Of a stretch of 64,000 bases of DNA, positions 8,823 through 19,111 are shown piece after piece; positions within the stretch are counted from its first letter, which is position 1; each line of letters opens with the position of its first letter. The stretch is from Helicobacter sp. 'house sparrow 1' (GTDB lineage: Bacteria > Campylobacterota > Campylobacteria > Campylobacterales > Helicobacteraceae): contig NZ_FZQY01000004.1 of the NCBI RefSeq assembly GCF_900199585.1, forward strand, positions 496,001 to 560,000, read 5' to 3'. The notes beneath the pieces were generated by a model that was not told the DNA's origin, searched no databases, and saw only the letters and a list, made by a program, of their open reading frames with translations. Position numbers and translations under genes: made by a program.

Positions 8823-9407
8823 TTGCAAACACTTAAAGATATAGCACAGATACAAGTAGGGCTTACTCTTTCAAGAGCAAAGGCAACTTTGTCTGACTTG
8901 GAAAAATACCCCTATAAATGTGTTTCAATTAACGCTTTTCCAACAAATGGAAACACAATGCTTTGGGGATATGAAAATCAATACTTCTCTTCAGAAAAAA
9001 TTTCTAGTGACTATTTGACACAAGAGGGAGATGTGCTTGTGAGATTAAGAAGTCCAGTCCGATCCATTTATATTTCTAAAGCTGAAGAGGGCTTGCTTAC
9101 TTCATCTTTGATTGCAATTATGCGCCCAAATCCAAAAGTTGTCCTAGGGGAGTTTTTAGCTTTTTATCTCAATTCATCTTTGCCTCAAGCTTTTTTTCAA
9201 TCCAAAGTTAAAGGTACTACAATTCCAATGATTAAACTCTCTGACTTAAAAGATTTACAAATTCCCCTTCCTTCTATAGAAAAACAAAAAACTATTATTC
9301 AGTGGATGAAAGAGGGAGATAGGGAAATCTCTTTTTTAACCGAACTTACTAAGCAAAAAATATTACTCAAACAACAAATCTTTAAAACATTACTAGCAAA
9401 GGAGTAA
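8823..9407 (+). CDS. Short type I restriction specificity subunit (half HsdS)
   Basis: 194 residues, about half the length of a normal HsdS, with one target-recognition domain (about 1-150) and one conserved helical spacer ending in IPLPSIEKQKTIIQWM and a coiled coil. It starts with TTG, supported by GAGGAG five bases upstream, so its expression may be kept low. Half-length S proteins can act as dimers, giving a symmetrical DNA target, or can compete with a full-length S. A second, full-length HsdS is encoded downstream at 12031. It is placed before hsdM, with a two-base gap. It could instead be the cut-down relic of a full hsdS, but it has no internal damage. Confidence 0.8.
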   Translation: MQTLKDIAQIQVGLTLSRAKATLSDLEKYPYKCVSINAFPTNGNTMLWGYENQYFSSEKISSDYLTQEGDVLVRLRSPVRSIYISKAEEGLLTSSLIAIMRPNPKVVLGEFLAFYLNSSLPQAFFQSKVKGTTIPMIKLSDLKDLQIPLPSIEKQKTIIQWMKEGDREISFLTELTKQKILLKQQIFKTLLAKE

Positions 9408-9409
9408 AA

Positions 9410-10900
9410 ATGTCAGTATCAAAAGAAATAATTAATGCAGTTGTATGGAAAGCCTGCGATGGATTCCGTGGGAGTATAGATAGCTCAAAATACAAAGACT
9501 ATATATTAAGTATGCTTTTTGTCAAATATCTTTCTGATTTTTATAAAGAAAAATTACAAGTTTTGCAAAATAAATACAAAGGAGATGAGGAGAGAATCAA
9601 GCGAAGCTTGCAAAGAGAAAAGTTTGTCTTAGATCAAACCTGCACTTTTGATTTTTTACTTCAAAACAAAGAAGCTAATAATCTTGGCGAGCTTATCAAT
9701 AAAGCACTATCAAGAATAGAAGAAGATAACTCTAGCAAACTTGATGGGATTTTCCGTAATGTGGATTTTAATGATAAGAATCTCTTAGGAGAGATCAAAG
9801 AAAGAAATGCAGTTTTGAGAAATCTGCTTGAAGTTTTTGATGATGAAAGATTGGATCTTTCTCCTAGTAAAATTTCTCAAAGAGATGTAATTGGTGATGC
9901 TTATGAATACCTAATCTCAGAATTTGCAAGTGATGCAGGGAAAAAAGGAGGAGAGTTTTTCACCCCTAGCGAGGTTTCTACTCTTTTAGCTAAGCTTGTA
10001 GGTGCAAAAGAAGGGGAACGAATCTATGATCCAACTTGCGGATCTGGTTCTTTGCTAATCAAAGCAAGCAAAGAAGTAGGAAATGAAAATTTTGCTATCT
10101 ATGGACAAGAAAAAAACTCTCAAACCCACTCTCTTTGCCGGATGAATATGTTTTTACACGAAATTAATGATGCCAAAATTGAGTGGGGAGATACGATTAG
10201 AAATCCCTTGCAAATTCAAAATGATGCTTTGATGAAGTTTGATGTAATTGTAGCAAATCCACCTTTTTCACTCGAACAATGGGGGATTGATGAAGCTAGA
10301 GATGATAGATGGAAAAGATTTATAAACTACCCACTACCTCCTGAAAAGTGTGGAGATTATGCCTTTATCTTGCATATGATTTTCTCTCTTGCTCCTTTTG
10401 GTAGAATGGGAGTTGTGCTTCCTCATGGTGTTTTGTTCCGTGGAAGCAGTGAGGGCAAAATCCGCAAACAACTTATTGATGAAAATCTCCTTGATACAGT
10501 GATTGGACTTCCTGCTAATCTCTTTTATGGCACCTCAATTTCTGCGTGTATTTTGATTTTTAAGCGCAATAGAGAAAGGCAAGATATTCTTTTTATTGAT
10601 GCAAGCAGAGAGTTTCAAAAAAACAAACGCCAAAATAAGCTCACAGAGGAAAATATCACCAAGATTTTCACAACCTACCATCAGCGCCAAGAGATTGAAA
10701 AATATTCTCATATTGCTACCCTTGAAGAGATTAAAGAAAATGATTATAACCTCAACATTCCTCGCTATGTGGATACTTATGAGGAAGAGGAAGAGGTAGA
10801 TATCCCCTCTACACTTGCAAAAATTGCAAATCTTAATGAGGAAATTGCCAAAACGCAGAAAAAAATGGATGCTTACCTCAAAGAATTAGGACTAGTATGA
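9410..10900 (+). CDS. hsdM: Type I restriction-modification DNA methyltransferase HsdM
   Basis: 496 residues. An N-terminal helical HsdM domain (about 8-150) is followed by an N6-adenine methylase domain with GEFFTPSEV (181-189), the SAM motif DPTCGSGSL (207-215) and the catalytic NPPF (283-286). Both motifs are intact, so the protein should methylate adenines when bound to an S subunit, and with HsdR it completes the restriction complex. A consensus AAAGGAG lies upstream. Its TGA overlaps an ATG (ATGA at 10897-10900) that opens the 40-codon ORF. Confidence 0.93.
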   Translation: MSVSKEIINAVVWKACDGFRGSIDSSKYKDYILSMLFVKYLSDFYKEKLQVLQNKYKGDEERIKRSLQREKFVLDQTCTFDFLLQNKEANNLGELINKALSRIEEDNSSKLDGIFRNVDFNDKNLLGEIKERNAVLRNLLEVFDDERLDLSPSKISQRDVIGDAYEYLISEFASDAGKKGGEFFTPSEVSTLLAKLVGAKEGERIYDPTCGSGSLLIKASKEVGNENFAIYGQEKNSQTHSLCRMNMFLHEINDAKIEWGDTIRNPLQIQNDALMKFDVIVANPPFSLEQWGIDEARDDRWKRFINYPLPPEKCGDYAFILHMIFSLAPFGRMGVVLPHGVLFRGSSEGKIRKQLIDENLLDTVIGLPANLFYGTSISACILIFKRNRERQDILFIDASREFQKNKRQNKLTEENITKIFTTYHQRQEIEKYSHIATLEEIKENDYNLNIPRYVDTYEEEEEVDIPSTLAKIANLNEEIAKTQKKMDAYLKELGLV

Positions 10901-18400: not shown

Positions 18401-18459
18401 AGATTGAGAGCTTTATCATCAAAGTGAGAGAGATAGGACAAAAAAACTATGCAAGCTAA
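15424..18459 (+). CDS. hsdR: Type I restriction endonuclease subunit HsdR
   Basis: 1011 residues from the ATG at 15424 (GAGG nine bases upstream); a TTG six bases earlier is in frame. The N-terminal nuclease has the PD-(D/E)xK pattern P157-D158 and E172-L-K174. The helicase motor follows, with Walker A TQGSGKS near 310-317, DEAH near 405, TGTPLL shortly after, and the C-terminal motif LLTGFDAPS near 630. It translocates DNA and cuts when unmodified sites are met. All visible catalytic motifs are intact. It overlaps the RloC-like gene upstream and the YgjP-type gene downstream by 11 bases each. Confidence 0.93.
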   Translation: MKNNQTTYSTSEAITIQKPLVEFLKKMGYHYISPKEMQNYRTNTKEVLLKDILRTHLSKASFSHKGQNYYFSTEGIERAIRELETPSSEGLLKSNETLTTKLLQGIEVPQSLQDGSSKNQTLLLIDFENPDTNDFSFTEEFEVLRAQEEGGEKHRRPDIVVFVNGIPLVVIELKKSGVDIKEGISQMIRNQKNGEIPHFFRFIQMTLVGNNQDAKYATTGTPAKYYARWVEEDEKYLSPFSGEKNANAIEKLVFSLLSKERLLEMIYSFIVFEKLQKKIARHQQYFAIKRTLVRIQNDKGESRQGGLIWHTQGSGKSLTMSLMATVIKKNIPRARIIVVTDRKDLDIQIHKVFQASGISVSRARNSLHLKDLLSSGVRVITTLVHKFYDVKDKVGEDRDVFVLVDEAHRTQSGLLHNAMKRVFPNGCYIAFTGTPLLKKDKSSVQKFGGFIHKYTIEQALRDEAIVPLYYEGRIADQFVNNQDALNRRFEMLSRDLSKEQKADLRAKISRFQRLAPNRERLEEIALDISIHFEKIRPFKAMLATSSKYEAIKYHQIFQKNNWLKSAFVISAPDMREGYEDINQSNQDEVRKAWEDLMKEFSNEETYMEYIQDNFANGDEIELLIVVDKLLTGFDAPSVCCLYLDKTLRDHSLLQAIARANRIFENKDFGIIIDYRGLLDNLSKALVDYEVLAGYEEGDIAKAVISLQKQSLDVREKFQALQDFFIKCQVQEDYEIFLEDRERREKFYSLLLEFSKSLQLLFLGEGYQDEIKDSEVEIFKKALKFYVELKRSVQLRYHEKVDFRNYEKQMQELIDRYIGANEVEVLVELVGVFDERFLGEEKQLGSDSAKADRIINAINQVITQERVKNPFFYDELSKQIKDVLEKYKQGRIQEVEKLFEAKKILENLRGYSNNDQGSYPKDLVKNAQKAFYDNLKSRFDDEEKLVKFILELDEVFVQKSQKPDWEYNLEIAKQIDQAIDDLLYEYDILIPSQEIESFIIKVREIGQKNYAS

Positions 18460-19111
18460 AGTCATCTATAAAGATATTAAAAATTTTATTCTTAAAGTTA
18501 AGCCTTCTTTAGAAGTAATTTTGAGCGTACCAAGACATACAAGCGCTAAAGAGATAGATTATATCTTGCAAAAACGCAAAGGATGGATTGAAAATGCATT
18601 GCAAAGATTCCAAGCTCTGCAGCCCATAAGCCCCAAAGAATTTGTAAGCGGAGAAGATTTTGAGTATTTAGGAAAGCATTATCGTCTTAAAGTGATTCCA
18701 AGTACAAAAGAAGAGATAAGAATTAATGGTGCATTTGTAGAACTTTTGACAAAAAAAGAAAATGATTTTTTGCATAAACAAAAGCTCATCAAGCAATGGT
18801 ATCAAAAAAGAGCTCTTGAGTGTTTTAGTAAATTGCTAGATTCTTATGCAAAACTTTTGGGGTTTGAGGTAAAGACTCTAAGGATTAGGACAATGAAAAC
18901 AAGATGGGGAAGTTGCAATCCTAAAAAAGCCTCAATTAATCTCAATCTTGAATTGATTAAAAAGGATAAAAGAGAGATTGAGTATGTCATCTTGCACGAA
19001 TTAGCACATCTTAAATATCCTTATCATAATCAAGACTTTTATCACTTTGTAGCCTTATATATGCCAGATTGGAAAGATGTAAGAGCAAAGCTAAATGGAA
19101 TAAAAGCTTAA
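18449..19111 (+). CDS. YgjP-type (DUF45) zinc metallopeptidase, restriction-linked
   Basis: 220 residues of the M48/DUF45 metallopeptidase group. It has the family motif RWGSC (152-156), the zinc site HELAH (183-187) and a likely third ligand at H193 or H199 in YHNQDFYHF. Genes of this type are often found directly after hsdR, and this one overlaps hsdR by 11 bases. The substrate is unknown; a role in controlling or maturing the restriction complex is only inferred from linkage. It closes the defence operon; its stop lies in the left arm of the inverted repeat at 19103-19142. Confidence 0.8.
   Translation: MQAKVIYKDIKNFILKVKPSLEVILSVPRHTSAKEIDYILQKRKGWIENALQRFQALQPISPKEFVSGEDFEYLGKHYRLKVIPSTKEEIRINGAFVELLTKKENDFLHKQKLIKQWYQKRALECFSKLLDSYAKLLGFEVKTLRIRTMKTRWGSCNPKKASINLNLELIKKDKREIEYVILHELAHLKYPYHNQDFYHFVALYMPDWKDVRAKLNGIKA

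Follow-up and report, generated by a model that had tools for sequence, protein, structure and literature searches.

A Helicobacter type I restriction operon with two exchangeable cargo slots, occupied by an AbiF-type unit and a RloC-like nuclease gene

Introduction

The classic example of a gene lodged within a type I restriction operon is prrC, in the EcoprrI locus of Escherichia coli (PMC3874165). RloC is defined by ABC ATPase motifs split by a CxxC zinc-hook insert and by an R-x3-E-x36-52-H triad (PMC2610378), and RloC-type and other rlo accessory genes have been known in the hsd loci of Campylobacter jejuni since Miller 2005, to the extent that work is cited in PMC2610378. AbiF is an HEPN toxin with an upstream hairpin RNA; in Clostridioides difficile the corresponding RNA, RCd22, neutralises AbiF (PMC12373285), and the structure of PbAbiF has been solved together with its RNA (8VZ6; PMC12737573). 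Here we analysed a locus in which genes of these kinds are combined within one type I restriction operon, located in a 64,000-nucleotide stretch (hereafter the window) of contig NZ_FZQY01000004.1 from Helicobacter sp. 'house sparrow 1'. A first reading, made from the letters of the sequence alone (the sequence-only reading), had proposed a nine-gene defence operon in which RNA-targeting cell suicide backs up DNA restriction. Our comparisons show that the locus is an hsd frame with two exchangeable cargo slots rather than a conserved nine-gene system, and we consider it fairly probable that slot 1 holds an AbiF-type toxin-antitoxin unit, its toxin probably disabled here, and that RloC in slot 2 backs up the restriction enzyme.

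Results and Discussion

A restriction frame with interchangeable cargo

All nine frames proposed in the sequence-only reading were confirmed (Table 1), on the + strand and with overlapping stops and starts, and their gene-family names agreed with Pfam, PADLOC and NCBIfam. These results support a single defence operon with an Abi_2 gene, here AbiF, added within the same run of genes. HsdM, HsdS and HsdR carry the expected methylase, target-recognition and nuclease/helicase domains, and the restriction-modification set looks complete from its gene content (half-S, M, S and R).

Relatives share a recurring frame of half-S, hsdM, slot 1, hsdS, slot 2, hsdR and ygjP. Slot 1 holds abiF RNA and abi_2 in the window and in relatives G094 and G092, abi_2 with rhuM in G095 and G087, and rhuM in G038 and in the distant metagenome-assembled genome L084; it is reduced to a scar in G093 and is empty in G100. 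Slot 2 is occupied by RloC in the window, a PtuA-like ATPase in G094 and G092, PDC-S34 in G087 and G100, a two-gene pair with one membrane protein in G095, AbiTii in G093 and abi_2 in L084. The half-S gene stands before hsdM in six relatives and is missing from G095 and G038, while G080 has a plain M-S-R locus. The nine-gene order does not recur; in relatives the hsd frame persists while its cargo is exchanged. The pattern that the sequence-only reading had named as its possible undoing, plain hsdMSR loci in most relatives with the cargo genes scattered elsewhere, was not the majority pattern, but the pairing of AbiF with RloC is not conserved either: among 121 genomes of the family, abi_2 occurs in nine and a RloC-like gene in 14, and only the window genome has both.

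A wider survey covered 80 abi_2 loci from many phyla, 78 of which had a detectable abi_2 frame. Genes of hsd type lay within 10 kb of abi_2 in 24 of the 78 loci, and in 18 of them abi_2 was flanked on the same strand by hsdM/S on one side and by additional hsd genes, always including hsdR, on the other. The sample consisted of the closest relatives without a matched control, and we treat the apparent enrichment of abi_2 in hsd operons, far above the expectation from one type I locus per genome, as a lead. No description of AbiF within hsd operons was found in the literature searched, whose coverage was incomplete. In H. equorum (L015, 3-4961), AbiF, abiF RNA and a coupling open reading frame (ORF) stand between a type III-like methylase gene and a ResIII gene.

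These distributions bear on a rival explanation, plain defence-gene clustering, by which AbiF and RloC would act without any link to restriction and the hsd operon would simply offer them a safe site of insertion. It is favoured by slot 2 cargos being unrelated among relatives while hsdM and hsdR stay alike, and by many abi_2 and most RloC genes lying outside hsd loci (PMC2610378). However, random clustering need not favour the interior of an operon, and abi_2 is nested between hsd genes in the 18 loci above, a pattern that H. equorum repeats in a type III-like pair. In addition, the cargos are embedded in the gene run in the same orientation, mostly with coupling overlaps, the exception being one cargo of G038 that is on the other strand. 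We regard clustering as quite possible, although we lean against it.

The RloC-like nuclease in slot 2

A RloC-like gene had been placed in the position of PrrC, between hsdS and hsdR, and this was borne out with all key motifs intact. The protein has a Walker A motif at 30, a CPFC zinc hook at 264, an LSEGEK signature at 505 and a Walker B motif at 536, all conserved in relatives, and its R-x3-E...H triad (R653, E657 and H691) aligns with theirs. The published features of RloC, split ABC motifs with a CxxC hook and the triad, are thus present, with the triad spacing slightly short, whereas PrrC, of ~340-416 aa and lacking a zinc-hook insert, does not describe a 741-aa protein with a CPFC hook. 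Judged by these motifs, the gene is a RloC-type anticodon nuclease with predicted tRNA cleavage; a search by sequence found no solved structure related to it. The protein also matches PADLOC PDC-S06, although that is only a candidate defence family with no mechanism attached.

Like EcoprrI, the locus places the gene of an RNA-cutting ABC-ATPase nuclease with an R-x3-E...H triad inside a type I operon; unlike PrrC, the window protein has the RloC zinc-hook insert and twice the length, and hsdM and hsdS are separated by an additional AbiF unit. As far as the C. jejuni loci are described in PMC2610378, they resemble ours as Campylobacterota type I hsd loci with inserted accessory genes, the RloC type among them, and differ in that the window has AbiF with its RNA and the half-S and YgjP ends. 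In two further genomes of the family (G066 and G114) the RloC gene adjoins hsdS and hsdR genes. The hsdR gene beside RloC in G066 is split in two frames (L058, 11805-14749), as if broken or phase-variable. The RloC-like genes of G025, G027 and G046 (L064, L065 and L061) are also split in two frames, which suggests frequent inactivation.

The abiF RNA of slot 1

Upstream of abi_2, relatives have a hairpin in common: its outer stem is long, its inner stem of 3 bp precedes CTCT, and it carries a 3' bulge. The covariance model R1 was built from 11 non-Helicobacter sequences and was thus blind to the window. In its seed 95.9% of cells are paired, as compared with 36-48% when slid, and nine of 11 pairs show two-sided changes. 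R1 matched directly upstream of most abi_2 genes tested, in many phyla. Across the 121 family genomes an E value of 1e-7 was reached only by the window and G095, in both immediately upstream of abi_2, and the next matches were at 0.01 or higher. The window sequence has the hairpin, inner stem and 3' bulge of an abiF RNA just upstream of abiF. It is not filed under Rfam RF03085 (abiF RNA) and is bridged to that family by R1 through L089 and L149, two RF03085 members outside the seed in which both models match at the same positions. With R1, antitoxin RNAs that escape the Rfam model can be found in Campylobacterota. A second Helicobacteraceae class of the RNA (G087, G092, G094 and G093: CGGGTGCT..AGCACTGACTGGG) was missed by R1, its two-stem shape being kept by eye only.

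In the outer stem, the step from the window to G095 replaces C-G by T-A at the fourth pair, a two-sided compensatory change, and T-G by C-G at the sixth. The 3' arm of this stem contains the abi_2 Shine-Dalgarno sequence, AGGAGGT in G095 and AGGGGGT in the window. Upstream of the stem, a TATAAT-like box ends exactly 11 nt before it in 22 of 44 loci, and such a box lies within range in 28 of the 44 as against nine of 132 control windows. This conserved box indicates that the abiF RNA is probably transcribed from its own promoter.

The AbiF protein

The window protein is a member of the AbiF family by descent, with an Abi_2 domain and the AbiF fold; it matches PbAbiF (8vz6) with a sequence E value of 3e-43, and its predicted model (pLDDT 95) superposes with a template modelling score of 0.88. 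We do not claim it as an active toxin. The HH-R motif proposed in the sequence-only reading as the RNase-like site proved wrong: the catalytic HEPN motif is R-N-x-C-A-H, and in the window its arginine is a cysteine. This position is arginine in eight of eight family relatives and in all 74 loci with a readable motif. Both R and H of RNxCAH are needed for HEPN catalysis, and variants there lose toxicity in AbiFCd and PbAbiF (PMC12373285). With the catalytic Arg replaced, the AbiF RNase is probably dead in this genome, and the idea of Abi_2 as a working RNase here was not supported. The gene is otherwise intact, and in comparison with G095 its nonsynonymous divergence (dN 0.15) is low relative to its synonymous divergence (dS 0.82; dN/dS ~0.19). 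The Cys change therefore looks recent, or the protein looks to have been kept for another reason, and Cys209 may also be an assembly error or a strain variant. A count of private changes in abi_2 (8 vs 4) was not significant by itself as a sign of relaxed selection.

The locus shares with AbiF/AbiFr (PbAbiF, 8VZ6) and AbiFCd/RCd22 an HEPN toxin-family protein with an upstream hairpin RNA, of the same fold and RNA architecture. It differs from them in its single RNA motif, its weak T tail, its nesting among hsd genes with a coupling ORF, and the lost catalytic Arg.

The two small open reading frames

Neither small ORF is the unexplained linking part that it had seemed. The 40-codon ORF overlies the abiF antitoxin RNA, and the frame that links the hsdM stop with the start of abi_2 is open in all six hsd-nested loci (window, G095, G094, G092, G087 and G093), with 1-5 stops in the other frames. 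A Markov model gave a chance of 0.05-0.16 per locus for an open frame, figures that cannot simply be multiplied since the loci are related. The frame kept open in all six loci suggests that this is probably an ORF that couples translation of hsdM to abi_2. In H. equorum the corresponding frame between the type III-like methylase and ResIII genes is likewise open.

The 44-codon ORF is, by comparison with relatives, best read as largely a rhuM/hsdS-leader scar that may still serve as a coupling ORF. Its first bases, encoding MKSNQIQ, match in sequence and position those that begin rhuM in G087, and the ORF finishes within the hsdS leader. Similar remnants are present in G094 and G092, and G093 has a longer scar in which abiF RNA and the beginning of abi_2 are joined to part of rhuM and the same hsdS leader. 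A search with its peptide gave only G094 and G093 above noise, matches that were explained afterwards by the scar.

Alternatively, both ORFs could encode functional small proteins, such as inhibitors of restriction or of a toxin. Relatives keep both frames open, a KKFF..L.K..GFLGY pattern with synonymous changes vs G095 is shared over the first 20 codons of the 40-codon ORF, and the 44-codon ORF keeps its frame in G094 with 70% identity. However, the second half of the 40-codon ORF follows the RNA structure, the 44-codon ORF begins as the rhuM start and ends in the hsdS Shine-Dalgarno region, and neither has a family match in Pfam, PADLOC or NCBIfam; we consider functional small proteins unlikely.

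The rhuM remnant in the window, together with Arg209Cys and with G093, which retains only an abiF RNA scar plus the abi_2 start, might also indicate a decaying island, in which AbiF is dead, rhuM a scar, the remainder drifting and the operon a relic. Against such decay, the frames and motifs of hsdM, hsdS, rloC and hsdR are intact, and both the dN/dS of abi_2 and the two-sided compensatory change in the abiF RNA, each between the window and G095, point the same way. Decay of the whole operon appears distinctly improbable.

Proposed working of the operon

DNA restriction with a RloC backstop is the best-supported reading of the mechanism, and a layered defence as a whole is plausible by analogy with PrrC. 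The restriction enzyme would destroy unmodified DNA. Should a phage block restriction or break DNA, RloC, in the PrrC position of slot 2, would cut tRNA anticodon loops and halt translation, a restriction-linked triggering that we likewise propose by analogy with PrrC. Slot 1 would constitute a type III-like toxin-antitoxin unit in which the HEPN RNase AbiF is bound and silenced by an abiF RNA, with a promoter as the third component. A drop in the short-lived abiF RNA would free AbiF to act as a second layer of RNA cutting. In this genome the Arg-to-Cys change has probably disabled that layer, which would leave RloC as the only live RNase. Ribosomes leaving hsdM would be led by the 40-codon ORF across the abiF RNA to the start of abi_2, opening the hairpin over the abi_2 Shine-Dalgarno sequence, and the internal promoter would supply free antitoxin RNA.

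Several points weigh against this reading. The E-to-H spacing of the window RloC is 33 residues, just under the published 36-52, and RF03085 itself gave no meaningful match in the window or relatives, its gathering cut-off not being reached. The cargo turns over without matching change in the hsd genes, as would also be expected of mere passengers. Finally, RloC is linked to restriction systems only sometimes, and in Acinetobacter it answers DNA breaks, a restriction response not having been demonstrated there (PMC3874168).

A broader proposal is that AbiF and its RNA recur across phyla as a guard module in both type I and type III restriction operons, in the role that PrrC has in E. coli. The overlap of the RNA with the coupling ORF would then let translation of the methylase mRNA set the toxin/antitoxin balance, and the RNase-dead window AbiF would be kept as an RNA-binding regulator of the operon. 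This is speculative and we hold it as doubtful. AbiF is the proposed ancestor of Cas13, and the locus connects both this protein and its antitoxin RNA with restriction operons, for which only guards of the PrrC/RloC type were well known. The comparisons also offer a concrete reason for small ORFs in restriction operons, and they illustrate that one gene order, taken to define a defence 'system', can be a single instance of a frame whose cargos are interchangeable, and that behind the gene name Abi_2 can stand an enzyme that is probably inactive.

Junctions and surroundings

Table 1. Features of the operon, in window coordinates
Feature	Position	Strand	Evidence
Candidate operon -10 box (TATAAT-containing stretch)	8790..8797, approximate	+	ttgtataatgct upstream of TTG 8823; consensus match only
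Half HsdS, 194 aa, one target-recognition domain	8823..9407	+	Pfam Methylase_S 7e-15
hsdM	9410..10900	+	N6_Mtase 3e-117; HsdM_N 8e-26
40-codon ORF, probable translational-coupling ORF	10897..11019	+	overlaps hsdM stop and abi_2 start
-10 box TATCAT of abiF RNA	10945..10950	+	TATAAT-like hexamer at conserved distance from stem
abiF antitoxin RNA (predicted)	10962..11010	+	blind covariance model R1, 39.3 bits, E 5.1e-9
abi_2/abiF, HEPN RNase-type toxin family, 295 aa	11016..11903	+	Abi_2 4e-51; PADLOC AbiD 3e-72
Altered HEPN motif, CNICAH instead of RNxCAH	11640..11657	+	Arg209 to Cys, codon TGT 11640-11642
44-codon ORF, rhuM-start remnant (MKSNQIQ) joined to hsdS leader	11900..12034	+	comparison with G087/G095 rhuM; scars in G093, G094, G092
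hsdS, full length, two target-recognition domains	12031..13209	+	Methylase_S 7e-44
rloC-like anticodon nuclease, 741 aa	13209..15434	+	AAA_13 5e-116; PADLOC PDC-S06 9e-218; PrrC 3e-13 (weak)
hsdR	15424..18459	+	TIGR00348 2e-148; HSDR_N, SWI2_SNF2, T1R_D3-like
YgjP-like metallopeptidase, constant last gene of frame	18449..19111	+	PF01863 2e-63

The half-S stop is separated from the hsdM ATG by 2 nt. Overlaps of 4 nt occur at hsdM/40-codon ORF, 40-codon ORF/abi_2, abi_2/44-codon ORF and 44-codon ORF/hsdS, given the ATG starts in Table 1; the program-listed starts GTG 10992 (abi_2) and GTG 11986 (hsdS) were rejected as too far upstream. The hsdS/rloC overlap is 1 nt, and those of rloC/hsdR (counting hsdR from ATG 15424) and hsdR/ygjP are 11 nt each. 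Generic promoter and terminator scans of the operon performed no better than on shuffles. Repeats in the operon were short and chance-like except for the usual HsdS internal repeat, and no long homopolymer for phase variation was found in it. The operon has moved, because relatives carry it at other places.

The YgjP-like gene follows hsdR in eight relatives and is found in nearly all loci with this frame, L084 included. The slot 2 pair of G095 (L011, 11513-12942) encodes a 313-aa protein without a family match and a 163-aa membrane protein. It is possibly an undescribed defence pair, Kiwa-like by eye and not confirmed as such in PADLOC. At L128 an RT-18 RNA (Rfam RF03021; 19134-19209, - strand) lies ~9 kb from an abiF RNA. 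Just before the operon of the window, a tRNA-Met gene (8420-8493, + strand) overlaps the 3' end of a rodA-like frame (7295-8458).

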